A stretch of 64,000 nucleotides of DNA from Paucibacter sp. Y2R2-4 (GTDB lineage Bacteria > Pseudomonadota > Gammaproteobacteria > Burkholderiales > Burkholderiaceae_C): the NCBI RefSeq assembly GCF_025717535.1, contig NZ_JAJIRO010000004.1, positions 1 through 64,000 of the forward strand, in the 5' to 3' direction. Positions 55,194 through 64,000 of this stretch are shown piece by piece. Every line of letters starts with the position of its first letter. Position 1 is the first letter of the stretch. The position numbers were made by a program, and so were the translations under genes. The notes under the pieces were generated by a model that was given only the letters and a program-made list of their open reading frames with translations, made no database searches and was not told the origin of the DNA.

Positions 55194-55846
<653 letters not shown>

Positions 55847-55850
<4 letters not shown>

Positions 55851-56524
55851 GATCGAAACAGGCGTGAGTACTGGGTTTCATGCCGCGCTGACAAAACAGC
55901 GAGCATGGGCGAAAAGGCTTGGGCCTGGTCTTGCTCTGCCAGCGTCATGGCGCGCGCCACGGCCGCGGGCGTTTCGGCCGCCAGACGAGCCAGGATGCGT
56001 TGCCCCGAACTCTGGCCCAAGGGCGCCGACTTGATGGCTGCGCTCACCATGTTCTCGGCCCAGCCGAAGCTGTAGGCCATCAAAGCATCGGGCAGCGCCG
56101 CGCCGCTGCTGGCCAAGGCCAAGGCCATCACCAAGGGATAGGTGGGCTGACCCAAGGCCTGGCATTGCAGGATCTGCTCGGCGCTGGCGGTGTGATGGTT
56201 GCGCAGCCAATCCAAAAGCGAACGCCCCATTTGCTCGGACTGCAAACGCAGCTCCGCGCTCTCGCGGGTTTGCAGCACCCAGTCATTCAAGACCCGCAAG
56301 CCCGACAGGTCCGCGCAGGCCCAGGCTGCAATAGCGCGCGCCGTCAAAGCCAGGTCGCCGCGCGTCTGCGTCAGCGCGAGTTGCTGCGACAGCCATTCGG
56401 CCGCGCTCGCCTCGTCATGCACCCGACCATGCTCGACCGCCGACTCCAAGCCCTCGGAGTAAGAAAAGCCCCCAATCGGCAAGGCCGGCGAGGCCAGCCA
56501 CATCAACTGCAGCAAGGCACTCAT
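55847..56524 (-). CDS. ureF: Urease accessory protein UreF
   Basis: A 225-residue all-helical scaffold protein that joins UreG to the apo-urease complex. [23 protein letters not shown] and [21 protein letters not shown] are family blocks, given here only as markers: A-L-P-I-G-x-F-x-Y-S-x-G-L-E near the N-terminus and S-W/A-x-x-N-x-V-x-A-A-I-K later. It overlaps ureE and ureG by 4 bp each, so the three are translated together. UreF normally works with UreD, which is not encoded in the cluster. Confidence 0.96.
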
Positions 56525-57045
56525 GGGTGGGGATGGGGATGGGGGTGTGCATGTGAATGCGCATGGCCATGTTCATGGGAGTGGGCGTGCCCGGCGCCAT
56601 ACGCCCCGGCCTCAGGTTCAAAGGGCGCGTTCACCGCAGCCACTCGGAGGTGCATGGCCTGCAGCATCTCGGCCAAGACATGGTCGGGCTCGATCTGCAA
56701 ATAGTCGGGCCGCAGTTCGATGGGCACATGGCGGTTGCCCAAGTGATAGGCCGCGCGAATCAGATCAAAGGGCGAGCCATGTTCCGGGCAAGCGCTGATG
56801 CGCAGCAAGGCCTGCGGCGCGGCCGTGACACGGATCAAGGACCCGTCCTCGGCCACCAACACATCGCCCCCGCGCAAAACGGTGCCGCGCGGCAAGAAAA
56901 CACCGAGACTGCGGCCCAGGCTGTCTTGCGCTTGGAAGCGACTTTTTTGACGGCAGTCCCAGTCCAACAAGAGCTCGCTGGCGCGCTTCAACAGCACGGC
57001 GGCCAAACCCTGGCCCTGAGGAATCCGCTTGGACACTTGCAGCAT
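56521..57045 (-). CDS. ureE: Urease accessory nickel metallochaperone UreE
   Basis: A 174-residue nickel carrier: N-terminal peptide-binding domain (residues about 1-70; RLRA-like [12 protein letters not shown]), metal-binding domain with the conserved His in [12 protein letters not shown], and a very His-rich C-terminal tail of about 25 residues with alternating His and Ala, Ser, Glu, Gly or Pro. Such tails store extra nickel. ureC ends 11 bp upstream. Confidence 0.96.
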
Positions 57046-57056
57046 TGATCAATGCC

Positions 57057-58820
57057 TCAAAACAGAAAATAGCGCTGCGCCATTGGCAGCGAAGTCGCGG
57101 GTTCGCAGCTGAGCAATTGCCCATCAGCGCGCACCGCATAGGTTTGGGCATCGACTTCCATGCGCGGCAAATAGTCGTTATGAATCATGTCGCGCTTGCC
57201 AATGCCGCGGATGTTTTTCACCGCCGCCAAGGTCTTGCTCAAGCCATAGCGCTGGCCCACGCCGGCCGCCATTGCGGCTTGCGAGACAAAGGTCAAGGAA
57301 CCACGCGCCAGCGCGCCACCGTAAGCCCCAAACATCGATCGGTAGTGCACCGGCTGCGGTGTCGGAATCGAGGCACTGGGGTCACCCATGGCGGCCATGG
57401 CAATGCTGCCGCCCTTCAAAATGAAGCTGGGTTTGACGCCAAAGAAGGCCGGCTTCCAGATCACCAGATCGGCCCATTTGCCCACCTCAATGCTGCCGAC
57501 CTCATGGCTGATGCCATGCGCAATCGCCGGGTTGATGGCCAGCTTGGCCACATAACGCTTCACCCTTGCGTTGTCGTTACGCGCCCCATCGCCGGGCAAG
57601 GCGCCGCGCTGCGTCTTCATTTTGTGCGCCGTTTGCCAGCAGCGAATGATGACCTCGCCGACCCGGCCCATGGCCTGCGAGTCAGAGCTGAACATGCTGA
57701 TGGCGCCCAGGTCATGCAAGATGTCTTCGGCGGCAATGGTCTCGCGGCGGATGCGGCTTTCGGCAAAAGCCAGATCCTCGGCGATGGCCGGGTCCAGGTG
57801 ATGGCAGACCATCAACATGTCCACATGCTCATCCAGCGTGTTGATGGTGTAAGGCCGAGTCGGATTGGTGGAAGACGGCAGCACATTGGCCTCGCCCACC
57901 ACCTTCAAGATATCGGGCGCATGGCCGCCGCCCGCGCCCTCGGTGTGGAAGGTGTGGATGGTGCGGCCCTTGAAGGCCGCGACCGTGTCTTCCACAAAGC
58001 CACTCTCATTGAGCGTGTCAGTGTGGATGGCCACTTGCGTGTCGGTGGCTTCGGCCACGTTCAGGCAGTTGTCGATGGCGGCCGGCGTCGTGCCCCAGTC
58101 TTCGTGCAGCTTCAGGCCAATGGCGCCGGCCTCGATTTGCTCATGCAGGGCGCCGGGCAGGCTGGCATTGCCCTTGCCCATCAAGCCCAGATTCATCGGG
58201 AAGGCATCGGCCGCCTGCAGCATGCGTTCGATATGCCAAGCGCCCGGCGTGCAGGTGGTGGCGAAGGTGCCGGTGGCCGGCCCGGTGCCGCCGCCCAGCA
58301 TGGTCGTCACGCCGCTGGAGAGCGCCTCTTCGATCTGCTGCGGGCAGATGAAGTGGATGTGGGTGTCCACCGCGCCGGCGGTCACGATCATGCCCTCGCA
58401 GGCAATCACCTCAGTGCCGGGGCCGATGATGATGTCCACGCCGGGCTGGGTGTCGGGGTTGCCGGCCTTGCCGATGGCGGCGATGCGGCCGTTCTTCAGG
58501 CCGATGTCGGCTTTGACGATGCCCCAGTGGTCAAGGATCAGGGCGTTGGTCATGACCGTGTCAACCGCCCCTCCGTCCTTCCCATCACCGCGGCCGCGTT
58601 GCGACTGCGCCATGCCGTCGCGTATGGTCTTGCCGCCGCCGAACTTCACTTCTTCGCCATAGCCGACGGCATTGCCGGCGGCGTCGACACGTCCCTCGCC
58701 TGCGCGCAGGGTCAGGTCTTGCTCCACCTCAATGATCAGCGCGGTATCCGCCAAACGCAGGCGGTCGCCCACGGTCGGGCCATACATCTCCGCATAGGCG
58801 CGGCGTCCAATGGTGGCCAT
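57057..58820 (-). CDS. ureC: Urease alpha (catalytic) subunit
   Basis: A 587-residue urea amidohydrolase. The nickel-binding His pair is in [11 protein letters not shown], the carbamylated Lys is in [12 protein letters not shown], and the catalytic His in [13 protein letters not shown]. Compared with enterobacterial UreC there is an extra stretch of about 15 residues between EQDLT and [11 protein letters not shown] (residues about 34-50, rich in Gly, Ala, Arg) and an altered region near [19 protein letters not shown] 58820 overlaps the ureB stop by one base; a GTG one codon upstream is unlikely. Confidence 0.98.
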
Positions 58821-59125
58821 CACAAAGGCCCTTGCACCAGGCCGCGAAAGCCGTAGACGATGCGATCGCCGGCCAGATCGACCAGCTCCACCGTGCGCTG
58901 CTGGCCCGGCTCAAAACGCACCGCCAGGCCCGAGGCGATGTTCAGCCGCATGCCGCGCGCGGCAGCGCGGTCGAAGCTGAGCGCCGCATTGGTCTCGGCA
59001 AAGTGGTAGTGCGAACCGACCTGAATCGGCCGATCGCCAATGTTTTGCACCACCAGGCTGAGCGTGCGCCGGCCGGGATTGAGCTGATGCTCGCCCGCAT
59101 CAGTAAAGAGTTCGCCGGGGATCAT
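58820..59125 (-). CDS. ureB: Urease beta subunit
   Basis: A 101-residue structural subunit starting [19 protein letters not shown], with [13 protein letters not shown] and the C-terminal [11 protein letters not shown]. It packs with UreA and UreC in the active trimer. Two ATG codons stand in tandem; I use the second (59125), which is better spaced from GAG. The nickel transporter gene ends 5 bp upstream. Confidence 0.97.
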
Positions 59126-59746: not shown

Positions 59747-60049
59747 TCAAACAATCGGCTGGTGCACCGTCACCAGCTTGGTGCCGTCGGGGAACGTGGC
59801 CTCCACCTGAATGTCGGCAATCATTTCGGCCACGCCGTCCATCACGTCAGCGCGGCTGAGTAAGTCGCGGCCCTCGCTCATCAACTGCGCCACGGTCTTG
59901 CCGTCGCGCGCGCCTTCCATCACCGCGGCGCTGATGAAGGCCACCGCCTCCGGGTAGTTCAGCTTCAATCCGCGAGCGCGGCGGCGCTCGGCCAGCAAGG
60001 CGGCGGTGAAGATCAAGAGCTTGTCGCGCTCTCGGGGAGTCAATTCCAT
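59747..60049 (-). CDS. ureA: Urease gamma subunit
   Basis: A 100-residue structural subunit: [45 protein letters not shown] and the C-terminal [15 protein letters not shown] are classic UreA. It is the first gene of the cluster here; ureD, which usually precedes it, is missing, and the divergent transporter-kinase gene begins 102 bp away. Confidence 0.98.
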
Positions 60050-60151
60050 GGCAGGGCCTGAATTCGCTGTGGTCCCTCAGTCTTAGCAAGCCCCGTGCCG
60101 CTTTTGCTCATCACCAGCGCAGCGGGCACGAAACCTGCACACCCCAGCGGC
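60050..60151. promoter_or_regulatory. Divergent intergenic region between ureA and the transporter-kinase gene
   Basis: This 102-bp interval must contain both the urease promoter (leftward) and the transporter-kinase promoter (rightward), unless the GTG at 60095 is the true start of the latter. I see no clear -10/-35 pair, sigma-54 site or NtrC site in it. Confidence 0.35.
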
Positions 60152-63100
60152 ATGAGCGAGCTCGCCGCCAGTCCCTGCCCAAGCACCACCCCAAGCATCA
60201 GCCCTGCCACCAGCAGCGCGCCCCAGCGCGTCATCAAGGTGCGCCGGGACTACAACGCCTGGGTGGCCAGCGAAACGCTGGAAGACTATGCGCTGCGCTA
60301 CACGCCGCAGCGCTTTCGGCGCTGGTCCAAGTTTCGGGTGGCCAACACCGCCTTTGGCGCGGCCTCGTTTCTGATCTTGGAAGCGGTGGGCGCCACGCTG
60401 CTGCTGCAATACGGTTGGGCGAATGCCTGTTGGGCGATTCTGGCCACCGGTCTGATCATCTTTCTGGCCGGCCTGCCCATCAGCATCTATGCCGCTCGCT
60501 ACGGCGTGGACATGGACTTGCTGACCCGCGGCGCCGGCTTTGGCTATATCGGCTCGACCCTGACCTCGCTGATCTACGCCAGCTTCACCTTCATCTTCTT
60601 TGCGCTCGAAGCGGCCGTGATGGCCTATGCCCTGGATCTGGCGCTGGACATCCCGCCGCGCTGGGGCTATCTCATTTGCGCGCTGGTGGTGATCCCCTGG
60701 GTCACCCATGGGGTCTCGCTGATCAGTCGGCTGCAACTGCTCACTCAGCCGCTGTGGCTGCTGATGCTCTTGCTGCCCTATGGCTTTGTTTGGGTGCGTG
60801 AACCCGCTGCTTTCGCGGGCATCACGCACCAGATTGGCGTGCAGTCCGGCGCTGCGGGTTTTGATCTGCGCTACTTCGGTGCAGCACTCACCGTGGGCAT
60901 TGCCCTGATCACGCAAATGGGCGAGCAAGCCGACTACCTGCGTTTCATGCCCGCCCTGCGCGCGAACGCCAGCATTGCGGAGCGGCGCCGCTGGTGGACT
61001 GCGGTGCTGGTGGGCGGGCCGGGCTGGGTGGTGTTGGGCGTGTTGAAGATGCTGGGCGGCGCGCTGCTGGCCTATCTGGCCCTCAGCCACGCGGTGCCGC
61101 CGGAGCGCGCCGTGGACCCGAATCAGATGTATCTGGCGGCCTATGAATATGTATTCCCGCACTACGGCTGGGCGGTGGCCGCCACCGCGCTCTTTGTGGT
61201 GATCTCGCAGCTGAAGATCAATGTCACCAATGCCTATGCCGGCTCCCTGGCCTGGAGCAACTTCTTCTCGCGCCTGACCCACAGCCACCCCGGCCGGGTG
61301 GTCTGGGTGGTGTTCAACACCTTCATTGCCTTCTTGCTGATGGAGATGAATGTGTTCGAGGCTCTGGGTCTGGTGCTGGGGCTTTATGGCAATGTGGCCA
61401 TCGCCTGGATGATGGCGGTGGTGGCAGATCTGGTGATCAACAAGCCCATGGGTTGGTCGCCAGCCGGCATCGAGTTCAAGCGCGCCCATCTGTACGACAT
61501 CAACCCGGTGGGCGTGGGCGCCATGGCCCTGGCCTCGCTACTTTCGGTGAGCGCGCATCTGGGTCTCTTCGGCGAAGGGCTGCAGGCTTTCTCGGCCTTG
61601 ATCGCCATGGGCTGCGCCCTGCTGGCCTCGCCGCTGATCGCCTGGGCCACGCGTGGGCGCTATTACCTGGCGCGCTCGGCGAGCACCGCCACTCCAGCCG
61701 CCGAAGCAGGCAGCTACACCCGCCTGGTCAACCGGCGCTGCGTGATCTGCGAGCGCAGCTATGAAGGCCCAGACATGGCACACTGCCCGGCCTATCAAGG
61801 CCCGATCTGCTCCTTGTGCTGCACGCTGGACGCGCGCTGCGGCGACTTGTGCAAGCCGCAGGCCAAGCTCTCGGCCCAATGGGCGGCGGCGCTGCGCTGG
61901 CTTTTGCCGCGCAAGACCTGGCCCTTTTTGGACAATGGCCTGAGCCACTTCTTGCTCTTGATGGGCGTGGCGCTGCCGCTGCTGGCCGGCTTGTTCGGCC
62001 TGCTCTACAGCCAGGAGCTGCGCAGCCTGGCCGGCACTGCGGACACCCAGGCCTTGCAGAGCCTGCGCGCCGGCTTCATCAAGGCCTATGTGCTGCTCGG
62101 CCTGGTGGCCGGCATTGCCGCGTGGTGGTTGGTGCTGACGCATCAAAGCCGCGAGGTCGCTCAAGAAGAGTCGAACCGCCAAACCGAGGCCTTGATGCGC
62201 GAAATCGCCTCGCACCAGCGCACCGACGAAGCGCTGCAAGCCGCGCGGCTCTTGGCCGAGCGCGCCCAAGCCGCGGCGGAAGCCGCCAACCAGGCCAAGA
62301 GCCGCTACGTCAGCGCCATCAGCCACGAGCTGCGCACGCCGCTGAACAGCATCTTGGGCTATGCCCAGCTGATGGCCGAAGACCCCACGCAAGACCTGCC
62401 CCCCAGGCGCCGCCAGGCGGTGCAAGTAATCAAGCGCAGCGGCGAGCACTTGCTGCAACTGATTGACGGCACGCTGGACCTGGCGCGCATCGAAGCCGGC
62501 AAGCTCAGCCTGGAGCTCGCGCCCATGCGCTTTGAAGACTGCCTGCATGAACTGGCCGAGATGTTCGAGCCGCAAGCCGCCGCCAAGGGGCTGCGCTTTC
62601 ACTTTGAGCCGCAGGGCGAATTGCCCACTTGCGTGCGGGCCGACGAGCGGCGCCTGCGTCAGATCCTCATCAATCTGATTGGCAATGCGCTCAAGTTCAC
62701 GCAGCAGGGCGCGGTGCGCCTGCGGGTGCGCCATGCGCGCGAGATGGCCTGGATTGAGGTGCAAGACAGCGGCCCCGGCATGAGCGAAGCCGACTTGGCG
62801 CGCATCTTCGAACCCTTCACTCGCGGCAGCGCGTCGGGCGAAGCCACGAGAGAGGTCGCCAGAGAAGCCGGTACCGGCTTGGGCCTGAGCATTGCCAAGA
62901 TGCTGGCCGCGCTGATGGGGGGTGAGCTGACGGTGCGCAGCCGCTTGGGCGAGGGCTCAACGTTCACCGTCAAGCTCTTCTTGCCGGCCATCGCCGAGTC
63001 CGGCCTGCCGCATGCTCAAGCCCGCGCCATCCATCGTCCATTGCCCCGTTTGGGCTATGCCGGGGCGCGCCGCACCGTGCTCTTGGTCGATAACGAAGAA

Positions 63101-63700
63101 GCTGATCGGCAGCTGCTGCAAGAACTGCTGCAACCCTTGGGCTTTGAGCTGCATTGCGCCGCCAGTGGTCATGACGCTTTGGACCTGCTGGTAAGCGCCG
63201 GCCTGCGCCCCGATGCTGTGCTGATGGACCTGGCCATGCCCGGCATTGACGGCTGGGAGACGCTGCGCCGACTGCAAGCACTGGCGTTGAAGCCCGCCCC
63301 AAAGGTCGCCATTGTTTCGGCCAATGCGTTTGAGAAAGGCCAAGACAACACGGCCGGCATCCGCGCGGCCGACTTCATCACCAAGCCGGTTCGGCATGCC
63401 GAGTTGCTGGATTGGTTGGGCCAGGCTTTGCAACTGCAATGGCTGAGCGGCACGCCCGAGCCCGCGTCCCGGCCTCAGGAGGCGAGCCCAGCGGCAAGCG
63501 TCGCTCTGCCGGCCGAGCATCTGCCCGCCCTGCGCGAGGCTGTACAGCTGGGCTTTTACCGCGGTGTCTTGAACCAGCTCGACGCCATGGCTCGCCTGGC
63601 GCCAGAGAGCCAGCTCTTCATCGAGCAGTTGCGAGGTATGGCCGCGCAGTTTCAGTTTGAAGCCATGGAACAGTTGTTGAGCGAGGCCCCAAGCATATGA
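60152..63700 (+). CDS. NCS1 transporter fused to a hybrid sensor histidine kinase
   Basis: An 1182-residue inner-membrane receptor. Residues about 30-480 are an NCS1 (nucleobase-cation symport, CodB/hydantoin-type) permease with about 12 helices; TLEDYALRYTP, GYIGSTLTSLIYASF and ALITQMGEQADYLRFMP are seen. Residues 530-567 form an eight-Cys cluster (C-x2-C-x11-C-x7-C-x2-CC-x5-C-x3-C). Two more helices follow (about 610-680), then a coiled-coil and the kinase: H-box ISHELRTPL with His725, and ATPase boxes LIGNALKFT, DSGPGMS and GTGLGLSIAK. A receiver (LLVDNEEAD, phospho-Asp1026 in VLMDLAMPGIDG) and a helical tail complete it. ATG 60152 is preferred over GTG 60095. It overlaps a response regulator gene by 4 bp and is divergent from urease. 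Confidence 0.88.
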   Translation: MSELAASPCPSTTPSISPATSSAPQRVIKVRRDYNAWVASETLEDYALRYTPQRFRRWSKFRVANTAFGAASFLILEAVGATLLLQYGWANACWAILATGLIIFLAGLPISIYAARYGVDMDLLTRGAGFGYIGSTLTSLIYASFTFIFFALEAAVMAYALDLALDIPPRWGYLICALVVIPWVTHGVSLISRLQLLTQPLWLLMLLLPYGFVWVREPAAFAGITHQIGVQSGAAGFDLRYFGAALTVGIALITQMGEQADYLRFMPALRANASIAERRRWWTAVLVGGPGWVVLGVLKMLGGALLAYLALSHAVPPERAVDPNQMYLAAYEYVFPHYGWAVAATALFVVISQLKINVTNAYAGSLAWSNFFSRLTHSHPGRVVWVVFNTFIAFLLMEMNVFEALGLVLGLYGNVAIAWMMAVVADLVINKPMGWSPAGIEFKRAHLYDINPVGVGAMALASLLSVSAHLGLFGEGLQAFSALIAMGCALLASPLIAWATRGRYYLARSASTATPAAEAGSYTRLVNRRCVICERSYEGPDMAHCPAYQGPICSLCCTLDARCGDLCKPQAKLSAQWAAALRWLLPRKTWPFLDNGLSHFLLLMGVALPLLAGLFGLLYSQELRSLAGTADTQALQSLRAGFIKAYVLLGLVAGIAAWWLVLTHQSREVAQEESNRQTEALMREIASHQRTDEALQAARLLAERAQAAAEAANQAKSRYVSAISHELRTPLNSILGYAQLMAEDPTQDLPPRRRQAVQVIKRSGEHLLQLIDGTLDLARIEAGKLSLELAPMRFEDCLHELAEMFEPQAAAKGLRFHFEPQGELPTCVRADERRLRQILINLIGNALKFTQQGAVRLRVRHAREMAWIEVQDSGPGMSEADLARIFEPFTRGSASGEATREVAREAGTGLGLSIAKMLAALMGGELTVRSRLGEGSTFTVKLFLPAIAESGLPHAQARAIHRPLPRLGYAGARRTVLLVDNEEADRQLLQELLQPLGFELHCAASGHDALDLLVSAGLRPDAVLMDLAMPGIDGWETLRRLQALALKPAPKVAIVSANAFEKGQDNTAGIRAADFITKPVRHAELLDWLGQALQLQWLSGTPEPASRPQEASPAASVALPAEHLPALREAVQLGFYRGVLNQLDAMARLAPESQLFIEQLRGMAAQFQFEAMEQLLSEAPSI

Positions 63701-64000
63701 ATGCAGGTGTCAAAAACGAGGCGCCGCCTTTCAACGCGAACTCCAGCGCGCACTCCAACGCGCAGTACGGTCCGCAGTTCGCCCGCCAACGTGGCGAGCT
63801 GGTCTTGATCGTCGACGATGTCCCCGACAACCTGAGCCTGCTGCACGATGCGCTGGATGAATCGGGCTACACCGTGCTGGTGGCCACCAACGGCGAGGCC
63901 GCGCTCAAGCGCGCCACGCAGGCCCTGCCCGACATCGTGCTGCTGGACGCAATGATGCCGGGCTTGGACGGCTTTGAGGTGGCGCGTCGCCTGAAGGCCA
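63697..64000 (+). CDS. Response regulator, partial (runs off the right end)
   Basis: The first 101 codons of a regulator that overlaps the transporter-kinase stop by 4 bp (ATGA). A Asn/Ser/Ala-rich leader of about 30 residues precedes a receiver domain with LVLIVDDVPDNLSLL (acidic pair) and phospho-Asp in DIVLLDAMMPGLDGFEVA. The output domain lies outside the window. It is the obvious phosphorylation partner of the fused kinase. Confidence 0.9.
   Translation, partial: MNAGVKNEAPPFNANSSAHSNAQYGPQFARQRGELVLIVDDVPDNLSLLHDALDESGYTVLVATNGEAALKRATQALPDIVLLDAMMPGLDGFEVARRLKA

Follow-up and report, generated by a model that had tools for sequence, protein, structure and literature searches.

A urease-linked hybrid histidine kinase of Paucibacter with a fused NCS1-type permease and an eight-cysteine domain, a probable sensor of urea

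The first 64,000 nucleotides of contig NZ_JAJIRO010000004.1 of Paucibacter sp. Y2R2-4 (GCF_025717535.1), hereafter the window, carry near their end the gene of a hybrid histidine kinase fused to a transporter-like module, whose probable role in sensing urea is considered here. The gene is a single intact open reading frame on the forward strand (60152..63697, stop codon 63698-63700) and encodes 1182 amino acids, comprising an NCS1-like permease domain (residues ~24-505, 60221..61666, from profile alignment and Foldseek), an eight-cysteine cluster with the spacing C-x2-C-x11-C-x7-C-x2-CC-x5-C-x3-C (residues 530-567, 61739..61852), two further transmembrane segments (residues ~592-667, 61925..62152, from hydrophobicity and the structural model, with hydrophobic stretches at ~592-624 and ~634-667), a HisKA dimerisation/phosphoacceptor domain with H725 (residues 715-783, 62294..62500), a HATPase_c ATP-binding domain (residues 831-944, 62642..62983), a receiver domain with D1026 (residues 976-1087, 63077..63412) and a helical tail. 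Pfam reports only HisKA, HATPase_c and the receiver which, with the histidine and the aspartate in place, identify a hybrid histidine kinase. The partner gene starts at 63697, overlapping the kinase stop as ATGA, and runs on the same strand to 64000 and past the window end to C4:64755; its product of 352 amino acids has REC and GerE/LuxR helix-turn-helix (HTH) domains in Pfam and is a LuxR/NarL-type response regulator. Every part listed by an initial annotation of these letters, the coupled regulator included, was recovered, and its worry that a frameshift error might have joined two genes was ruled out, since all 42 matches of a profile of the cysteine domain in 299 Pseudomonadota genomes sit in open frames of 894-1247 amino acids.

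The kinase begins 103 bp from ureA (59747..60049, reverse strand), the first gene of a divergent urease operon in which ureC, for the alpha subunit (57057..58823), is followed by ureE (56521-57045), ureF (55847-56524) and ureG (55194-55850), all on the reverse strand. Downstream, the kinase pair and urtA are separated by 8-10 kb of genes which by eye resemble LacI, TonB, sugar kinases and MFS or other transporters. This intervening sugar-use cluster corresponds to C4:65847-73355 (L001 5847-13355), and in a near relative (L014) the gap between kinase and urtA is about 1.5 kb.

The initial annotation assigned the N-terminal module to the NCS1 permeases, a label upheld by profile-profile alignment and structure comparison and not by Pfam. 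The NCS1 model PF02133 matches neither the window protein nor anything else in the genome; Pfam, NCBIfam and PDB sequence searches of the permease gave no transporter match, and no PDB chain was matched by phmmer or by a 34-row profile of fused permeases. Aligned by hhalign with eight permeases found by PF02133, this profile gave a probability of 99.0 (E 4.8e-18, 351 columns), and 99.9 (8e-32, 421 columns) when the three nearest permease-only proteins were added. The control, an SLC5 protein from the same genome, gave a probability of 0.4 against the fused-permease profile; with this value, and with no SSF match in the Pfam scan, an SLC5 origin of the permease was ruled out. An AlphaFold model of residues 1-715 built from 57 sequences was of moderate quality (mean predicted local distance difference test, pLDDT, 67.9; predicted template modelling score, pTM, 0.62), and the five best Foldseek matches to it in the PDB were Mhp1 and CodB (best E 1.4e-6, template modelling score by target 0.56-0.72), behind which came Nramp, ApcT and further LeuT-fold proteins. 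Against the label weigh the lack of any PDB match to the 34-row profile and two of the nearest permease-only proteins, namely L122, which has no Pfam match, and L120, which falls under the cut-off. Judging from profiles and model, the permease is of NCS1 type, with a LeuT-type fold closest to Mhp1 and CodB, and is invisible to Pfam. Another of the three nearest permease-only proteins, an NCS1 relative of about 30% identity (L124 7949-9442), stands in a row with genes that by eye look nitrilase-like, UrtA/AmiC-like and ANTAR-like.

In the permeases of the 69 loci tabulated, the window's own included, E153, Q255, E258, Q259, D261, R264, K355, I356, N357 and N360 are each invariant, and F149 is kept in 65. 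In two alignments Mhp1 W117, Q121, W220 and N318 fall on F149, E153, I253 and N360, while S312/T313 fall on K355/I356; W117 and W220 we take to be the tryptophan pair that sandwiches hydantoin, and S312/T313 are presumably sodium-site residues. The initial annotation had proposed checking whether the Mhp1/CodB substrate site is retained, and the answer is mixed: N318 is kept as N360, but W117, W220, Q121 and S312/T313 are replaced, and both the aromatic sandwich and the sodium site give way to F149, I253, K355 and I356. The three nearest permease-only proteins have the same glutamate at the E153 position and an arginine where the fused permeases have lysine, positions at which canonical NCS1 proteins carry Asn/Gln and other residues. 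Because F149, I253, E153, K355 and I356 occupy the Mhp1 site positions, these changes point to a small, polar, non-stacked ligand rather than a ring and suggest that the sodium site has been lost.

The cysteines that follow the permease (530, 533, 545, 553, 556, 557, 563 and 567) recur, identically spaced, in all 69 loci and are absent from the permease-only matches L122 and L124; the 42 profile matches mentioned above come from 38 of the 299 genomes, and all lie in frames fused to this permease. Likeness to known domains is weak, consisting of Prok-RING_1 matches in 6 of 35 members (best E 0.0078), PDB profile matches to C2H2 fingers over some 20 positions (best 2.7e-4) and a phmmer RING match (E 0.39). 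The cluster perhaps binds zinc, its pattern being such as would allow two four-cysteine sites; in the model this region has a pLDDT below 50-55, too low for metal geometry to be read.

The initial annotation had linked the kinase with urea and had suggested searching for its domain order and tabulating neighbours, and this search, covering 20 kb around each copy in the 299 genomes, supports the link and extends it to amides. Within that distance 40 of the 42 kinase copies have ureC or a full-length formamidase gene, fmdA (29 have fmdA and 12 ureC, one having both), and at the remaining two the contigs end close to the gene; full-length here means at least 555 bits, a cut-off set after the list was seen, the next matches being at 285. 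Full-length fmdA is found in 29/38 genomes with the kinase versus 1/261 others (p 2.7e-31), and 29 of its 33 matches have the kinase within 20 kb; for ureC the figure is 12 of 106, so urease often occurs without the kinase. Three genomes with two copies (G390, G369 and G215) have one by fmd and the other by urease. Amide-type loci carry FmdA, an FmdB-like zinc ribbon, AmiE and an FmdDEF-type ATP-binding cassette (ABC) transporter, as seen by Pfam in examples and by blast in all. The permease is present in 28 of the 59 nearest genomes. Among 80 close relatives taken from named genomes, whose neighbour genes were scored within the fetched flank, 73 have ureC, ureA or urtA (65 urease without urtA, seven both, one urtA only), and in the 72 loci where ureA was found it lies a median of 129 bp away from the kinase match. 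On a 54-row tree the context changes between urea and amide four times (shuffled mean 13.8), which is the number forced by well supported branches, and a quicker 72-row tree also gives four. When the permeases were screened for residues that set the urea type apart from the amide type, the candidates were all weak, such as D322 versus E. Relatives are also carried by 524 of 72,556 plasmid records, of which 342 are from Klebsiella and 306 are called conjugative. Two arrangements were recorded besides: amide-type and urea-type kinase pairs in tandem in a Curvibacter stretch that holds no urease (L018 242-4580 and 7944-12499), and short kinases without a receiver beside fmdA and AmiS-like genes (L126 8502-11180 and L130 7021-9765), whose partners are REC-kinase or REC-EAL proteins and not LuxR regulators.

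A shared palindrome, approximately TACGYCAnnTGRCGTA, was found independently upstream of the amide-transporter and the urea-transporter operons. In 27 non-redundant regions upstream of fmdD the pattern.ATACGTCAatTgACGTAT. occurred in 27/27 (log-likelihood 271, against 28-33 for four shuffled sets), and in 14 regions upstream of urtA caTACGcCA..TGgCGTAtg occurred in 14/14 (131, against 24-30 for shuffled sets). Each set was detected by the matrix of the other (15/15 and 30/31); among 5200 random windows of 300 bp, 54 matched. The palindrome also lies upstream of fmdA in two loci where this gene rather than fmdD faces the kinase (L134, L135), and upstream of the transporter in held-out plasmid loci of Klebsiella pneumoniae and Sinorhizobium medicae (scores 25.3 and 25.0); it is missing in the short-form loci L126, L130 and L219, the first two having partners without a LuxR HTH. 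Co-occurrence was tested on the 30 best urtA loci, and the palindrome stood at urtA in 4/4 genomes with a urea-type kinase, in 0/5 with the amide type only and in 0/21 without the kinase; in two of those four (G077 and G369) urtA lies 60-100 kb off the kinase, in loci outside the matrix set. The Paucibacter genome has it at C4:74907-74926, 124 bp upstream of urtA, while at a score of at least 11 the window has none, the gap between ureA and the kinase included. The proposal of the initial annotation that the kinase controls urease is therefore retained only in part, the candidate operator here being that of urtA; however, direct control may exist in some relatives, because a weaker palindrome (score at least 12) stands upstream of ureA, in the gap between urease and kinase, in 22 of 81 loci (about 1% of random windows).

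The same gap holds two sigma54-like promoters placed back-to-back, a site being scored as GG..GC plus at least 10 of 12 bases of what we take to be the sigma54 consensus. One, GGGCACGAAACCTGCA (60124..60139, forward strand), faces the kinase, with a predicted start ~2 nt before the ATG; the other, CGGCACGGGGCTTGCT (60085..60100, reverse strand, 11/12 consensus), faces ureA. From its predicted start, the kinase message may be nearly leaderless. In Burkholderiales urea-type loci such sites point toward the kinase in 70/82 and away from it in 69/82 (random windows 155/5200), and at the transporter and amidase promoters they number 0/15 for urtA, 1/31 for fmdD and 0/33 for fmdA. LuxR-type regulators are not sigma54 activators, so the two inputs look separate, with nitrogen limitation acting on sensor and urease and the substrate acting on uptake. 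This separation fits what the available portion of the published account says of fmd, which formamide and urea induce and ammonia represses (PMC10781810).

Fold family, architecture, gene linkage, and the shared palindrome with its tendency to accompany the kinase were computed directly; from these we infer ligand, signal direction, operator binding and the role of the cysteine domain, and consider it quite probable that the protein is a transceptor kinase for urea, which through its LuxR-type partner turns on urtABCDE and with it the uptake of urea. On this view the NCS1-like module derives from a permease for small amides or urea and would bind urea, moving it or not; its rocking would be relayed by the eight-cysteine domain and the pair of helices to the HisKA/HATPase core and the receiver. 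The partner, once phosphorylated, would activate urtABCDE from the operator ~124 bp upstream of urtA. Through the sigma54-like promoters, sensor and urease would be produced whenever nitrogen in general is limiting, and the presence of urea would add high-affinity uptake, as in an AND gate, and the amide-type relatives would play the same role for formamide/acetamide via FmdDEF.

Several observations weigh against this proposal. Seven of the 80 close relatives lack ureC, ureA and urtA in the fetched flank: three are truncated where the contig begins, another has ureEFG, L018 lies beside the amide-type pair, and L056 and L076 have none of these. The strict palindrome pattern matches the genome three times, once at urtA and twice inside open frames, and a reversed control pattern matches it 22 times; moreover, the palindrome is assigned to the partner regulator through co-occurrence alone. 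Finally, kinase-facing sigma54-like sites are found in just 12/36 amide-type and 3/8 other urea-type loci.

Other explanations were considered. It is possible, though unlikely, that the kinase reads the overall nitrogen state of the cell or some internal metabolite (ammonium, glutamine-linked), the permease being a membrane scaffold only: the sigma54-like promoters do link the locus to nitrogen control, and urea as ligand is itself deduced, but a mere scaffold would not account for pocket-side polar residues (E153, Q255, E258, K355, N357 and N360) invariant in 69/69, nor for a context that changes along the tree in step with the substrate (urea or amide). Somewhat less probable still is that the cysteine domain is the true input, sensing a metal or redox state such as the nickel supply for urease. 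The eight cysteines are invariant, missing from the permease-only L122 and L124 and weakly reminiscent of zinc fingers and RING domains, and nickel would suit urease; however, amide-type members stand at FmdA/AmiE loci, whose enzymes we take to have no obvious use for nickel, and the domain occurs solely fused to this permease (42/42). We give about the same low credence to the idea that the palindrome belongs to another regulator travelling with these transporters; the palindrome is absent at urtA in 21/21 kinase-free and 5/5 amide-type-only genomes, as well as from the short-form L126, L130 and L219, among which two loci have partners that lack a LuxR HTH. A ring or ureido ligand (uracil, allantoin, hydantoin), as the initial annotation proposed, is very improbable and was not upheld, since, even though Mhp1 and CodB belong to the same fold family, the relatives adjoin genes for urea and short-chain amides, F149 and I253 replace the stacking tryptophans, and an invariant glutamate takes the Mhp1 Q121 position.

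More broadly, we lean towards regarding these proteins as a widespread, undescribed class of transceptors, that is, NCS1-fold kinases with a private eight-cysteine coupling domain, which would detect either urea or short-chain amides and regulate import of whichever compound they detect via one shared operator. They would then supply the regulator so far missing for many fmd and urt operons, and so for formamide and urea uptake in many Pseudomonadota, including the cluster on Klebsiella conjugative plasmids, and would bring to three the transporter folds recruited as kinase sensors. Since the ligand can be guessed clearly and both a partner regulator and a candidate operator are in hand, signalling from transporter to kinase is directly testable. 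The Klebsiella plasmid "urea transport" binding protein scores 73% against FmdD and 42% against UrtA, and being nearer to FmdD its cluster may serve short-chain amides. In one such K. pneumoniae plasmid locus (L253 2906-12378) the "urea ABC transporter" cluster comes with both kinase and palindrome.

With Mhp1 and CodB the window protein shares the fold, the D..R motif after the sixth helix and N318 (N360), and it differs from them by F149 and I253 for W117 and W220, E153 for Q121 and K355/I356 for S312/T313, with roles assumed as above. Fusions of transporters and kinases are already known, as the accessible parts of the literature describe for CbrA, CrbS and RpuS (SLC5-STAC) and for Ks-Amt5, and our search, limited to the open PubMed Central literature, found no NCS1-kinase fusion. 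The principle invoked by the initial annotation, a CbrA-like sensor with a transporter-like N-terminus fused to a kinase, holds, and the partner of CrbS is also LuxR-type, acting through an inverted repeat in target promoters according to the available sections (PMC13022988, PMC9100948, PMC5715377); unlike those systems, the window kinase has an NCS1 and not an SLC5 module, an eight-cysteine domain where no STAC is shown, and urea or amides in place of histidine and acetate. Ks-Amt5, in the portion of its description at hand, is likewise a nutrient transporter re-used as a kinase-fused sensor that lost transport and kept binding, but with an Amt fold, ammonium as ligand and no cysteine domain described (PMC5764959). 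Amide-type relatives of the kinase adjoin clusters such as fmdCABDEF of M. methylotrophus and the Klebsiella plasmid "UTS" cluster, for which the consulted sections name no sensor kinase (PMC10781810, PMC5506382, PMC13060141), the plasmid copy being annotated "ATP-binding protein". In Dechloromonas aromatica RCB, the part of the report holding Table 4 lists a histidine kinase of 1131 amino acids, a receiver of 308 amino acids and UrtA consecutively and without comment (PMC2907700), and, as far as this table entry alone allows the comparison, the gene order is the same as here.

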